NCBI GenBank assembly: GCA_014376535.1
Contig: JACMRH010000288.1
Location: 1-36,538 of the forward strand
From: Cytophagales bacterium
GTDB taxonomy: Bacteria; Bacteroidota; Bacteroidia; Cytophagales; UBA9547
Length of the DNA stretch: 36,538 nucleotides
Direction: 5' to 3'
In this document: one piece after another, positions 5,805 to 23,251 of the stretch
How positions within the stretch are numbered: position 1 is the stretch's first letter
Layout: each line of letters opens with the position of its first letter
Position numbers and translations under genes: made by a program
Notes under the pieces: generated by a model
The model's database searches: none
Seen by the model: the letters and a program-made list of their open reading frames with translations, nothing else
Told to the model about the DNA's origin: nothing

Positions 5805-6416
5805 CTATTTTTTGTCTTTGTCATTTTTGTCTACTATTTCTTCAGCAGCTTCAGCCATTTGTAAATGATGCTCTAATGTTGACAATTTACCAGCAGCCCA
5901 GGCTCTAACTTCAGGATCATTTCCTTTCTCTGCTTCCTTTTTGAAATCTGAAATATCATCTTTGTGGTCTTTCACCATAAATTCTGTGTAAGCATCATCG
6001 AAGTCATTCCCTTTTTTCTTAGCAAGATCTTCATATTTGTCCTTAGCGTCATCGCTAAGATCAGCTGGCAAAGAAATATTCTTTTTGGCAGCTAATTCTT
6101 TTAATTCTTCATTTGCTTTTCCGTGATCTTTCACCATAAGCTTAGCGAATTCTTTTACTTTCGCAGAAGAACCATTTTTAAGAGCCAATTCTCCTAATCT
6201 TACTTCCATTAAACCACCATCAGCAGCTGCTACAGCGAATTTTGTATCATCTTCAATGTTAGTAGAATCGAATTTTTCATCGTTCATGTCTTTTGCTACC
6301 TCTTTGCTGTCTTTGTTGTCATTGTTAGTGTCTGCAGTATGATCAGCATCTTTTGAGCAAGAAGCGGCCATAAAAATAGTTCCGATAAGGGCAAAGTTTA
6401 AAGCAATACGTTTCAT
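5805..6416 (-). CDS. DUF4142 lipoprotein (ferritin-like four-helix domain)
   Basis: A 203-residue exported protein. The N-terminus has a lipoprotein signal with lipobox ending at Cys20 (MAASC), then an acidic, Asn/Asp-rich linker (about 22-55), and a helical DUF4142 domain (about 57-190) recognisable by DDTKFAVAAADGGLMEVRLGE-type helix 1, FAKLMVKDHGKANEEL, and EFMVKDHKDDISDFKKEA. The paired KDH motifs are typical of this DUF, which adopts a ferritin-like four-helix fold; its biochemical role is not known. The tail is Lys/Asp-rich. It stands alone, ending at a shared bidirectional terminator. Confidence 0.85.
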   Translation of the reverse strand: MKRIALNFALIGTIFMAASCSKDADHTADTNNDNKDSKEVAKDMNDEKFDSTNIEDDTKFAVAAADGGLMEVRLGELALKNGSSAKVKEFAKLMVKDHGKANEELKELAAKKNISLPADLSDDAKDKYEDLAKKKGNDFDDAYTEFMVKDHKDDISDFKKEAEKGNDPEVRAWAAGKLSTLEHHLQMAEAAEEIVDKNDKDKK

Positions 6417-12132: not shown

Positions 12133-13845
12133 CTAAAACAGGGAGTAGAGCTGCGCTAACGGCAATTTTGTTGCCGGTTTGCAGGTAAGCCAGACTCCAT
12201 CAATCGTGACTTTGTATGTTTCAGGATCTACTTTGATGTTTGGAAGGTAGTCATTCAGTTTCATGTCTTTTTTGCTGATGTTTCTACACGAAGAAACAGG
12301 TGCAAGTCGTTTCTTTAGTCCATATTTTTCAACAGTTTCTTTTGAATAAGCTGATATCAATGAAAATGAGTTTACTGAGGATGCCTGGCCGAGAGCCCCA
12401 AACATAGGCCTTGAAAAACTCGGTTGGGGTGTTGGGATTGAAGCATTTGGGTCTCCCATTTGCGCTTGGACGATTACCCCTCCCTTTAATATCATTTCAG
12501 GTTTTATACCAAAGAACTGAGGTTTCCAAAGAACCAGGTCTGCCAGTTTGCCTACTTCAAGAGAACCAATTAAATGACTGCAACCATGTGCTACCGCAGG
12601 ATTTATCGTGTATTTGGCTATATACCGCTTTACCCGGAAGTTGTCAGATTCTGTTTGCTTGTCTTCAGGTAGAAAGCCCCTTTGATCTTTCATTTTGTGT
12701 GCCGTTTGCCACGTTCTTGTAATGACTTCCCCAACTCTTCCCATTGCCTGCGAATCTGATGAAATCATAGATATAGCACCCAAGTCATGCAAAATATCTT
12801 CAGCTGCAATTGTTTCACCGCGAATTCTGCTTTCAGCAAAAGCAACATCTTCCGGAATATTTTTATCCAGGTGATGGCATACCATCAACATATCTAAATG
12901 TTCATCTATGGTATTGACTGTAAAAGGGCGTGTTGGATTTGTAGACGAGGGCAGGACATTTTCATCTCCGCAAAGGACGATAATGTCTGGTGCATGTCCA
13001 CCTCCTGCGCCTTCTGTGTGGTAAGTGTGAATTGTCCTTCCTTTGAACGCTGCCCTGCTGGTTTCCACAAATCCGCTTTCATTCAGGGTATCGGTGTGTA
13101 TGCAAACCTGAACATCCAGTTTTTCTGCCACCGAAAGACAATTATCTATAGTAGCAGGAGTTGATCCCCAGTCTTCATGCAATTTTAAGCCTATTGCTCC
13201 TGCTTTTATCTGTGCTTCCAGTTCTATAGGATGAGAAGTATTTCCCTTCCCAAGAAAACCAAAATTCATTGGAAAACTATCAGTGGCTTTCAACATCATT
13301 TCAAGGTAAAATGCCCCGGAAGTGCAGGTAGTGGCATTTGTTCCCGTTGCGGGCCCGGTTCCTCCTCCAATAAAAGTAGTTATGCCTGATGCAAGGGCTT
13401 CATTCATTTGCTGCGGACAAATAAAATGAATGTGACAATCAATCCCACCAGCAGTTACTATTGAGCCTTCTCCAGAAATGACTTCTGTACCAGCCCCGAC
13501 AATCATATGAGGATGTACACCAGGCATTATATGTGGGTTTCCACCTTTACCTATTGCTTTGATATTGCCGTTTTTGATTCCAATATCTGCTTTGTAAATA
13601 CCGGTATAATCTATAATTAAGGCATTTGTAATAATCAGGTCCAAAACCTCGTCAGGGTGAAATCCGGAAGCCTGACCCATTCCGTCACGAAGTACTTTTC
13701 CTCCCCCAAAAAGACATTCTTCACCATAAACAGTAAAGTCTTTTTCTACCTGAATGATTAAATTTGTATCACCCAAACGAAGTTTATCCCCGGTCGTGAG
13801 ACCATACATTTCAGCGTAATTGGTTTTAGAGATTTTGTAAGACAT
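12133..13845 (-). CDS. ureC: Urease alpha subunit UreC
   Basis: Catalytic subunit of urease, hydrolysing urea to ammonia and carbamate at a binuclear nickel centre in the cytoplasm. All expected metal and catalytic residues are visible at a constant offset of +4 from Klebsiella numbering: His138 and His140 (CHIHF), the carbamylated Lys221 (GLKLHEDWG), His250 (CIHTDTLNE), His276 ([13 protein letters not shown]), flap Cys323-His324 (MVCHHLD) and Asp364 (SSDSQAMGR). The length of 570 matches the family, so the enzyme should be active. The ATG start ([26 protein letters not shown]) is standard, and a heptamer array touches it directly. It is encoded downstream of the fused ureAB subunit across an unusually long 370-bp gap. 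Confidence 0.97.
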
Positions 13846-13875
13846 AGTATTCAGTACTTAGTATTGAGTATTAAG
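13846..13875. repeat. Heptamer array directly before the ureC start codon
   Basis: Plus-strand units AGTATTC, AGTACTT, AGTATTG, AGTATTA, then AG. The first unit begins at the base next to the ureC start codon (CAT at 13843-13845 on the plus strand), so in the mRNA the array is the last 30 nt of the 5' leader. The AGT core recurs every 7 nt without a slip. Confidence 0.7.
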
Positions 13876-13915: not shown

Positions 13916-14166
13916 GATTCCATATGTATAAATCAATTTCGTTTATGTAATTGTGATTTCGTTCTGTCATATGTCTATTTCGTTCATGTATCAATCGATT
14001 TCGGAGGTGTAAATATTGATTTCGTGTATTTAAATATCAATTTCGCTTTCTCATATATTGATTTCGTTCATGTATAAAATGGTTTCTATGTTGCAAATGC
14101 TGATTTCGTTCATTCAAATGTTGATTTCGCAGTGATAAATGTTGATTTCGTTCATGTACTTATAGT
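13916..14166. repeat. 21-bp tandem repeat array between ureC and ureAB
   Basis: Eleven clear units with plus-strand core TTTCG begin at 13937, 13957, 13978, 13999, 14020, 14041, 14062, 14083 (TTTCT), 14104, 14125 and 14146. The spacing is 21 bp throughout except the first step (20 bp). A degenerate twelfth unit precedes them at about 13916. The consensus is TTTCGTTCATG followed by TAAATRTTGA. Units differ at many other positions, so this is an old or selected array. It lies inside the urease series, reading as GAACGAAA-type repeats in the mRNA sense, and is interrupted by stops at recurring unit positions when translated on the minus strand. The 370-bp gap holds no supportable gene. 21 bp is two helical turns of DNA. 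Confidence 0.85.
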
Positions 14167-14215: not shown

Positions 14216-14962
14216 TCAAATAAGCCCCGCTTCCCCCATCCTTCTCGTGATCTCCTCAATGCCTATTTCTTCGATGCTTCCGTTGATCAGGTTATTCCCT
14301 CCAAAAACTTTTTTCTCGCCAGCTATTTCTACCAGTTGAACATTCTTTTTCTCACCAGGTTCAAATCTTACAGCAGTTCCTGCTGGAATATTTAGCCTGA
14401 AACCAATAGCCTTTACTCTGTCAAAAACAAGTGAGGGATTTGTTTCTACAAAAATGTAGTGAGAACCGACCTGGATAGGGCGGTCTCCTTTGTTTACTAC
14501 GTCTAATGTGATGGTTTTTCTTCCTTCATTTAAGACCACATCTCCAACTGGAATTATTTTTTCTCCTGGACTTTCATTGATAACATTGTCTACCTGAAAG
14601 GAGACGGGCTGTTTAGTTAATCCAGAACCATATAGAGCCAGGCCATTTTTAAGTAATTGGGAGCAAATAGGATCGTGAACAGTAACCAGTTTTGTTCCAT
14701 CAGGAAATGTACCCTCTATCTGTACATCGTGGATCATTTCAGGAACGCCAGGCATTACATCATCAATTGATAATATTTTTTTGCCCTTATCCATGAGTTC
14801 AGCAACACTTTCTCCTTCCCGTATAAATTCAAGTAATTGGGCAGCAATCAAAGCGATAGATTCAGGATAATTTAACTTTAATCCTCGGGCATACCGTTTC
14901 TGGGCCAGAAAACCGGCATTGTGGAGCATTAGTTTTTCGATATCCTTGGGTGTGAGGTGCAT
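14216..14962 (-). CDS. ureAB: Fused urease gamma-beta subunit
   Basis: Single 248-residue structural subunit joining the gamma and beta chains of urease. Residues 1-100 are the gamma part ([17 protein letters not shown]...; [45 protein letters not shown]). After a linker, about 131-248 is the beta part ([75 protein letters not shown]). This fusion is the arrangement known from Helicobacter UreA and some other bacteria. It forms the structural complex with UreC. It lies between urtE and ureC; both flanking gaps are rich in repeats. Confidence 0.95.
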
Positions 14963-14967
14963 AGGTT

Positions 14968-15079
14968 AGTTAAGAGTTAAGAGTCAATAGTTAATAGTTT
15001 CTGGGACTTCTCCTAGCTTTATGGTTGTAGCAACAGTTCATAACTACTATTAACTGTTAACTATAGACTATTAACTAAA
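14968..15079. repeat. Facing heptamer arrays forming an inverted repeat, ureAB-urtE gap
   Basis: Left arm 14968-15000: AGTTAAG, AGTTAAG, AGTCAAT, AGTTAAT, AGTTT. Right arm about 15046-15079 is the reverse orientation: ATTAACT, GTTAACT, ATAGACT, ATTAACT. Aligned as an inverted repeat, the two arms match at about 24 of 30 positions around a roughly 45-nt loop. The left arm starts 6 nt from the ureAB start codon, and the right arm runs into the urtE stop codon (15075-15077). Confidence 0.7.
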
Positions 15080-15782
15080 CAGATAGATATTTACTGACAG
15101 TAGAATGGTCCATTGTTTCTTTGCTGCCTTCCATAACCATTTTTCCTCTGTCCATAAAATAATAGTAATCTGTAACCTGCTTGGCAAAGTCTATTTTTTG
15201 TTCTACTAACAAGATAGAAATTCCTTTTTCTTTTACCAATCTTTTCAATACCTGTGCAATATCCTGTGCTATTGAAGGTTGGATTCCTTCAGTAGGCTCA
15301 TCTAAAAGAATAAGTTTTGGATTGCTAACTAGAATTCTGCCTATTGCAAGTTGTTGTTGTTGTCCACCGCTGAGGTTTCCTCCAAGTCGCTTTTTGAAAT
15401 CTTTCAGGATAGGAAAAAGGTCGTAGATTTCCTCCTCCGGAAATTTTGCTTTTTTGTCTGTTACAGCTTCCATGCCCAGCTTCAGGTTTTCGAAAACGGT
15501 CAGTTTGGGAATGATTTCTCTTCCCTGAGGAATATATCCCATTCCTTTCCAGGCTTTTTTGTAAGGAGGAAGTTTCGAAATTTCCTCATCGTAAAGTTTC
15601 AGGCTGCCGGCCTTAACATTTACCAGGCCCATAATGGTTTTCAAAAGGGTAGATTTCCCCACACCATTTCTTCCCATAATAGTAGTGGCCGATCCTTTTT
15701 TTACCTGAAAATCCACTCCCCAAAGTATAGTGCTTTGTCCGTAAGCAGCCTGGAGGTTAGTGGCTGTTAGTATGTTCTCCAT
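15075..15782 (-). CDS. urtE: Urea ABC transporter ATP-binding protein UrtE
   Basis: ATPase of the urea importer, LivF-like branch of the branched-chain amino acid transporter family. Visible motifs are Walker A GRNGVGKST, the Q-loop region GYIPQGREIIPKLTVFENL, signature LSGGQQQQLAIGR, Walker B LILLDEPTEGIQPS, and the H-loop region (ISILLVEQK, where Gln replaces the usual His as in LivF proteins). Full length at 235 residues. It works with UrtD on the cytoplasmic side of the UrtB/UrtC channel. Its position directly upstream of ureAB in the same direction supports urea rather than amino acids as substrate. Confidence 0.94.
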   Translation of the reverse strand: MENILTATNLQAAYGQSTILWGVDFQVKKGSATTIMGRNGVGKSTLLKTIMGLVNVKAGSLKLYDEEISKLPPYKKAWKGMGYIPQGREIIPKLTVFENLKLGMEAVTDKKAKFPEEEIYDLFPILKDFKKRLGGNLSGGQQQQLAIGRILVSNPKLILLDEPTEGIQPSIAQDIAQVLKRLVKEKGISILLVEQKIDFAKQVTDYYYFMDRGKMVMEGSKETMDHSTVSKYLSV

Positions 15783-15791
15783 AAGTCTTTT

Positions 15792-15869
15792 AATTATGAA
15801 TTATAATTGATGAATTATAATTGGATTAACTAAACATTCATCAATCATAATTTATCGTTCATCATTTTT
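15792..15869. repeat. Facing heptamer arrays forming an inverted repeat, urtE-urtD gap
   Basis: Left arm units from 15792: AATTATG, AATTATA, ATTGATG, AATTATA, ATTGGAT. Right arm units from 15835: CATTCAT, CAATCAT, AATTTAT, CGTTCAT, CATTTTT. About 20 of 24 positions are complementary between arms, so the transcript could fold into one long imperfect stem. The right arm reaches the urtD stop codon at 15868-15870. The sequence family differs from the AGT-type arrays, but the 7-nt period is the same. Confidence 0.65.
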
Positions 15870-17755: not shown

Positions 17756-17757
17756 AT

Positions 17758-17834
17758 AGTATCAAGTATTTAGTATCAAGTATCAAGACTTCCAAACAAT
17801 AGCGGGCTAACTCACAACGCACAACACGCCACTA
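17758..17834. repeat. Heptamer arrays, urtC-urtB gap
   Basis: Left array 17758-17787: AGTATCA, AGTATTT, AGTATCA, AGTATCA, starting 3 nt from the urtC start codon. Right array 17807-17834: CTAACTC, ACAACGC, ACAACAC, GCCACTA, running into the urtB stop codon (17832-17834). The two arrays are not clearly complementary to each other, unlike those next to urtE. Confidence 0.65.
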
Positions 17835-22844: not shown

Positions 22845-23251
22845 TTTAATTAAGATTAAGGGTTGTATACGTATGTATATAATACAAGTATATATAATTA
22901 CTTACGTAATAAAAAGTAGTTTAGTAAAATACTTTTAATGTTATAATAAACTATAAAAATATTAATATATACTTCAGAAATTTGGTACATTATTATAAAA
23001 AATATAAAATAAAACTAAAAAAGGTAGAAATGATTACAGATAAGGAATGTTAAATTTTAATTTATCAATATCATTTCTACAATAATTAACTGAAATATGT
23101 AGTACTGAGAAATTCTATAAATTCTCTGCCCAATAGTAGAATTCTAAGGAAATAATTCAGATATCAGGAATTCAATGTTTTCCATTGCTTATCCAGAGTT
23201 CAGATTTAGTAATCTACCTTCATTCAATATTCAAGGATTCTAAGAAACAAA
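22845..23251. other. Intergenic region upstream of the porin; ACGT-core dyad, no gene
   Basis: About 400 AT-rich bases with no supportable gene. It holds two 8-bp palindromes with an ACGT core, ATACGTAT (22867-22874) and TTACGTAA (22902-22909), with centres 35 bp apart. They form a wider dyad (ACGTATGTA ... TACTTACGT, 8 of 9 matching, 22869-22907) starting 25 bp from the porin start codon. This is the expected promoter region of the urea series, so the dyad is a candidate operator. The regulator is unknown. Confidence 0.45.

Follow-up and report, generated by a model that had tools for sequence, protein, structure and literature searches.

A tandem array with a 21-bp period between ureAB and ureC

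What is a long tandem repeat doing inside a urease operon, and why should its spacing be kept while most of its sequence drifts? In the window, by which we mean the whole 36,538-nt stretch of DNA analysed here, the ureAB fusion (urease gamma and beta; 14216-14962, minus strand; PF00547, PF00699) lies upstream and ureC (urease alpha; 12133-13845, minus strand; PF00449, PF01979) downstream of a 370-bp gap that holds a 21-bp tandem array (13925-14166, minus strand) and a 7-bp repeat adjoining ureC. On the minus strand, which is the urease coding strand, the units of the array read GAAATCAATATTTAMATGAAC, that is, GAAAT followed by 16 variable bases, and 11 GAAA-type cores are present. The corresponding plus-strand TTTC cores lie at 13937, 13957, 13978, 13999, 14020, 14041, 14062, 14083, 14104, 14125 and 14146, with a first core-to-core step of 20 bp followed by nine steps of 21 bp. 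The stretch of exact 21-bp steps (13956-14150, minus strand; ten cores) also contains higher-order blocks of 84 bp matching at 74%. A preliminary description of this DNA had reported eleven to twelve repeats with this succession of steps, and the analysis confirms 11 cores; its TTTCG pentamer was found in ten of the 11, the exception being the core at 14083, which is degenerate and reads TTTCT (14082-14087, minus strand). TRF returns periods of 21, 42 and 84 bp at the array (score 210 for the 84-bp period), indicating that part of the array expanded by block duplication. For TTTCG pairs separated by up to 60 bp across the 36.5-kb window, the spacings are 21 bp (seven pairs) and 42 bp (six pairs), and the sole spacing unexplained by the array, 13 bp, occurs once.

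The 7-bp repeat between the array and ureC (AGTATTC-like; 13846-13872, no strand assigned) is separate from the array. Repeats of 7 bp (or 14 bp) with differing sequences (AGTATTC, AGTTAAG, ACTATTA, TAGTATCAAGTATT) were observed in several intergenic gaps of the window, the short-repeat gaps being 13846-13872, 14968-14999, 15046-15077, 15791-15823, 17757-17787 and 22995-23022.

The array is not a conserved urease element

The preliminary description had offered control of ureC against ureAB as one possibility. In G003, a genome of the same family and the closest relative in which this operon occurs (81% identity in UreC), the gap between ureAB and ureC is ~10 bp long and contains no array; the array is thus not a conserved urease element, the suggested control is unsupported, and any effect of the array on urease is putative. 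Gain of the array in this lineage would be the simpler reading of this comparison, the alternative being loss in G003. Elsewhere in the operon, the Rfam family 5_ureB_sRNA (RF02514) matches the window at 13398-13692 on the plus strand, antisense to ureC, with 127 bits, a match more likely due to conservation of the urease coding sequence than to an sRNA.

Sister arrays in the same genome

Two further arrays with the core and 21-bp spacing of the window array are found in the same genome (G000), on C14 (~5840-6035) and C413 (~15014-15230), and the profiles of the three resemble one another with z = 7.5-9. Copies scattered with varied period had been named beforehand as a sign against selection on spacing; copies do occur in the genome, but their core and 21-bp spacing are identical to those of the window array, and the proposal survives. 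As paralogues, the arrays on C14 and C413 form part of a duplicated gene-plus-array segment. Because the G000 assembly is fragmented (551 contigs, 94% complete, 5.6% contamination), the three arrays represent a lower bound.

In the same-genus genomes G001 and G002, CGAAAT matches occur at background level only, so that the array family is either young or patchy. Across a sample of 395 genomes from the phylum, no phylum-wide signal of CGAAAT at 21-bp spacing was found: arrays of the window type, with diverged spacers, were found only in G000, and the remaining matches are isolated or belong to near-identical or 7-bp repeats. The many CGAAAT matches of G011 were considered as arrays of the window type and rejected, as they are mostly 7-bp CCGAAAT repeats. 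A scan for arrays across genome contigs gave many cyanobacterial repeats among the matches listed. As a separate observation, 21-bp arrays that combine a constrained SGCGAAAT core with variable spacers are numerous and dispersed in Neobacillus species (L095, L107, L112, L160, L166, L170, L270), some of them grouped in higher-order blocks of ~190 bp; three-core matches number 56-74 in three genomes, compared with 0-2 for a reversed control.

Constraint on the repeat core

In the nine full units of the window array, the GAAAT core carries mismatches at 1 of 45 positions, compared with 48 of 144 in the rest of the unit (Fisher test, 4e-6), and the conserved run stands out against permutation within units that keeps the number of mismatches per unit (p = 1e-4). 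The same partition appears between the paralogous arrays on C14 and C413 (L012 and L013), where differences fall on 2 of 50 core positions and 42 of 160 other positions (p = 3e-4). The earlier claim of selection on core and spacing is thus supported twice, by the permutation test and by the independent divergence of two sister arrays. The differences between the C14 and C413 arrays show no codon-position bias, and the codon changes they cause are 17 nonsynonymous and 4 synonymous, which places the constraint on the nucleic acid and not on a peptide. Local folding at the window array is weaker than in shuffled sequences on both strands (z = +1.5 and +2.0), and an array of hairpins or other RNA structure is rejected for this site. 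Curvature predicted with Bolshoy wedge values exceeds that of plain shuffles in two of the three G000 arrays and is not consistently above that of column-permuted controls. Judged from sequence comparison, the 21-bp phase and the 5-bp core look selected; the shared period could instead reflect descent and concerted evolution rather than selection on helical phase.

Arrays adjoin genes for uncharacterised helical proteins

On C413, the array follows a 230-aa gene without a Pfam family at a distance of ~50 bp, on its 3' side, and the array on C14 adjoins the end of a paralogue of this gene. Two frames resembling Y1/RAYT-type transposases were noticed by eye upstream of the gene and its array on C413 (L013, 3552-4061 and 5813-6160). 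Homologues of the 230-aa protein in relatives share 21-37% identity, and a 20-22-bp array lies within 350 bp of the gene in all seven homologues inspected (G003, G013 and G038; gene coordinates in relatives are those of open frames, not curated annotations). The distance is 84-321 bp for six of them (G003 C21, G003 C273, three in G013 and one in G038); for the seventh, G003 C8, the adjoining array (L234) was already known when the gene was identified. At a stricter threshold, six of the seven remain linked. Among frames of similar length, an array is present at 24 of 292 (8%) in G003, 0 of 47 in G013 and 27 of 176 (15%) in G038, giving a chance of ~1e-8 for seven out of seven under independence with the G013 rate taken as 6%, a product that ignores effects of gene length and intergenic context. 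Arrays therefore adjoin these genes more often than expected by chance. In line with this, four loci fetched by the array DNA pattern alone encode homologues, namely in Flavobacterium sp. WM.006 (L276, E = 2e-42), Ancylomarina salipaludis (L116, 1e-21), a Verrucomicrobiia MAG (L131, 1e-10) and, only after iteration, G222 (L365). The homologue at G003 C42 (L213) likewise joined only after iteration; a third search iteration also pulled in translated cyanobacterial arrays, and these were discarded.

Several members of the ~230-aa family have a C-terminal CarboxypepD_reg domain, and the helical part has no Pfam or NCBIfam match. The AlphaFold model of the linked protein is all-helical (pLDDT 85, pTM 0.56), and a fold search of the PDB gave no match at E <= 0.001. 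With isoelectric points of 4.8-9.4, the proteins of the linked family are not conspicuously basic, which, together with the lack of family and PDB fold matches, makes DNA binding by these proteins a guess. No homologue of the linked family on a plasmid came up in a plasmid search, nor did a literature search, whose coverage left out most subscription journals, find a published description of 21-bp arrays linked to the ~230-aa family.

Array families in a relative

A scan of 1.2 Mb of G003 for noncoding arrays at lags of 9-130 yielded 28 arrays, and in most of those with a readable period it falls at or near 20-22 bp or double that value. The periods of 20, ~20.7, 21 and 22 bp lie around two turns of the helix. 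The families have different unit sequences, with several distinct consensus sequences, and the GAAA core is common to these arrays only in part, several of them having been retrieved with a GAAAT pattern. G005, of the same family as G000, has mostly 7- and 8-bp repeats instead.

By profile comparison, G003 has at least four array families with two or more members. One joins the gene-side array C42 to C44, C150 and C208, in whose fetched flanks we found no homologue of the linked family, and another joins the gene-side array C8 to C28; the other groups are C2, C81 and C127, and C13 with C14. The C44 array, which has a GAAAT core, is antisense to its flanking open frames, and its family includes arrays in both orientations. 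The C14 array of G003 (L239, 16349-16726) is a 20-bp array of small hairpins, CAGA-N5-TCTG, with some compensated changes and folding z of -5 to -7.

A second uncharacterised family of ~235 aa (YLPxxDxxxKDWL...), apparently unrelated to the first, has a 20-21-bp array directly 5' of the start at three G003 loci, C2, C13 and C14, a putative linkage noticed post hoc. Its members lie at L216 1793-2533 (minus strand), L219 2668-3402 (plus strand) and L239 15537-16265 (minus strand), and their arrays come from three different families. In a Prevotellaceae MAG, a third uncharacterised family (~165 aa) adjoins 21-bp CGAAAT arrays, with three copies on JAIRZR010000266.1 (L109, L144, L204).

Comparison with known repeat systems

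Plasmid iterons are direct repeats of ~20-22 bp, about two helical turns apart, that are bound by protein side by side. The arrays described here are likewise 20-22-bp direct repeats in helical phase; unlike iterons, the window array lies in a chromosomal operon between urease subunits. Among the part of the window genes that was scanned, no replication-initiator gene was identified beside it.

BrickBuilt, a minisatellite-MITE of Porphyromonas gingivalis, consists of dispersed, always intergenic, imperfect 23-nt tandem repeats with a leader and tail carrying terminal inverted repeats (PMC4596501). Both occur in Bacteroidota as intergenic, dispersed, imperfect tandem repeats whose unit spans about two helical turns and has a conserved and a variable portion (PMC4596501), and in G000 three such noncoding arrays were found. 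However, the unit is 21 bp, with one 20-bp step, instead of 23 nt, and no leader or tail with terminal inverted repeats common to the three arrays was found: an 11-nt inverted pair matching at 82% is all that was found at the ends of the window array, and it was not seen at the ends of the sister arrays.

With REP/BIME elements and their RAYT transposases (PMC2817692, PMC3116915), the arrays share a repeat-flanked gene plus dispersed copies without a gene. In contrast to the palindromic REPs, they are unstructured direct repeats that fold less than shuffles, family searches do not identify the linked protein as a tyrosine transposase, and the window array is flanked by urease genes. The TAACTGA heptamer direct repeats of Beggiatoaceae, Cyanobacteria and Bacteroidetes are intergenic and proposed to be regulator binding sites, and relatives may have a short repeat-free gap; the available part of that report describes no linked gene family (PMC4679880). 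The array is similarly intergenic, with a short gap without repeats in a relative, but in place of 7-bp repeats it has 21-bp units of core and drifting spacer (best TRF periods 21, 42 and 84); the small heptamer repeats elsewhere in the window resemble the TAACTGA class more than the array does.

Discussion

We tentatively favour a reading in which the window array is a solitary, lineage-specific member of a species-specific family of helix-phased arrays that would serve as multi-site protein-binding platforms and are tied to a gene family. Every 21-bp unit places its constrained GAAAT (TTTC) core on one and the same face of the helix and leaves the spacer free to drift, and the resulting platform of ~11 regular sites would be bound side by side by a sequence-specific factor recognising double-stranded DNA, while local duplication would add units. 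The copies on C413 and C14 are the gene-side members of the G000 family and the window copy, between ureAB and ureC, a dispersed one. If proteins bind side by side on one DNA face, the core should be constrained and held in fixed helical phase while the spacers drift, as is seen here, and the G003 family whose arrays run in either orientation with respect to the frames beside them points to double-stranded DNA. The multi-site protein-binding array suggested in the preliminary description is thus favoured as a multi-site array at the DNA level, by core constraint and phase; that a protein binds it we infer, and the linked gene product is at most a candidate for that protein. More broadly, and with distinctly less assurance, families of helical proteins, in Bacteroidota and at one Verrucomicrobiota locus, might each be paired with a private family of 20-22-bp arrays, one usually gene-side and the others dispersed, with protein and array diverging together to give orthogonal specificities per genome; the window array would then be a target of the C413 and C14 paralogues.

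It is also possible, if somewhat doubtful, that the array is a neutral minisatellite, seeded by a dispersed element and expanded by slippage, with its 21-bp period kept by descent and a core that looks conserved through recent duplication or uneven mutation. The 84-bp block structure fits this account, bearing out in part the earlier suggestion of an old minisatellite, as do the array-less G003 operon, the lack of conservation at urease and the dispersed look of array families within genomes. However, the divergence of the C14 and C413 arrays after duplication spares the core, which neither slippage nor recency predicts, and the gene linkage would require a separate explanation.

We consider it unlikely that the arrays are passive hitchhikers of a mobile gene cassette, whose recombination-prone flanks help the helical-protein genes to duplicate or move and whose remnants are the solitary arrays, all without a regulatory role. 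The duplicated gene-plus-array segment of C14 and C413, the gene linkage itself and the Y1-transposase-like frames seen by eye near C413 are consistent with such a cassette, but no terminal repeats common to the three arrays were seen, the window holds no remnant of a gene of the linked family, and the core constraint between the C14 and C413 duplicates is at odds with passive carriage.

An RNA-level platform, in which a string of CGAAAU motifs in the ureC leader governs ureC translation or mRNA processing, a version of which the preliminary description had offered, is very improbable: the window and C413 arrays do carry GAAAT in the sense of the transcript, yet folding falls below shuffles, the G003 operon does without an array, and the GAAAT-core array G003 C44, in a family with both orientations, is antisense to its flanking frames. 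That the arrays encode a heptapeptide repeat (xxEIxxx) whose window copy has since been disrupted is barely credible, since, although the C14 and C413 arrays each carry an open frame of 64-65 aa, stops break the repeat frame in five of the nine window units and the two open copies differ without codon-position bias and with a nonsynonymous excess.

Bacterial intergenic minisatellites are usually treated as neutral markers; here, phase and core look selected. If the pairing of helical-protein families with arrays is true, it would open a way into the abundant hypothetical proteins of Bacteroidota and offer a directly testable case of helix-phased, multi-site DNA recognition whose sequence varies by genome.
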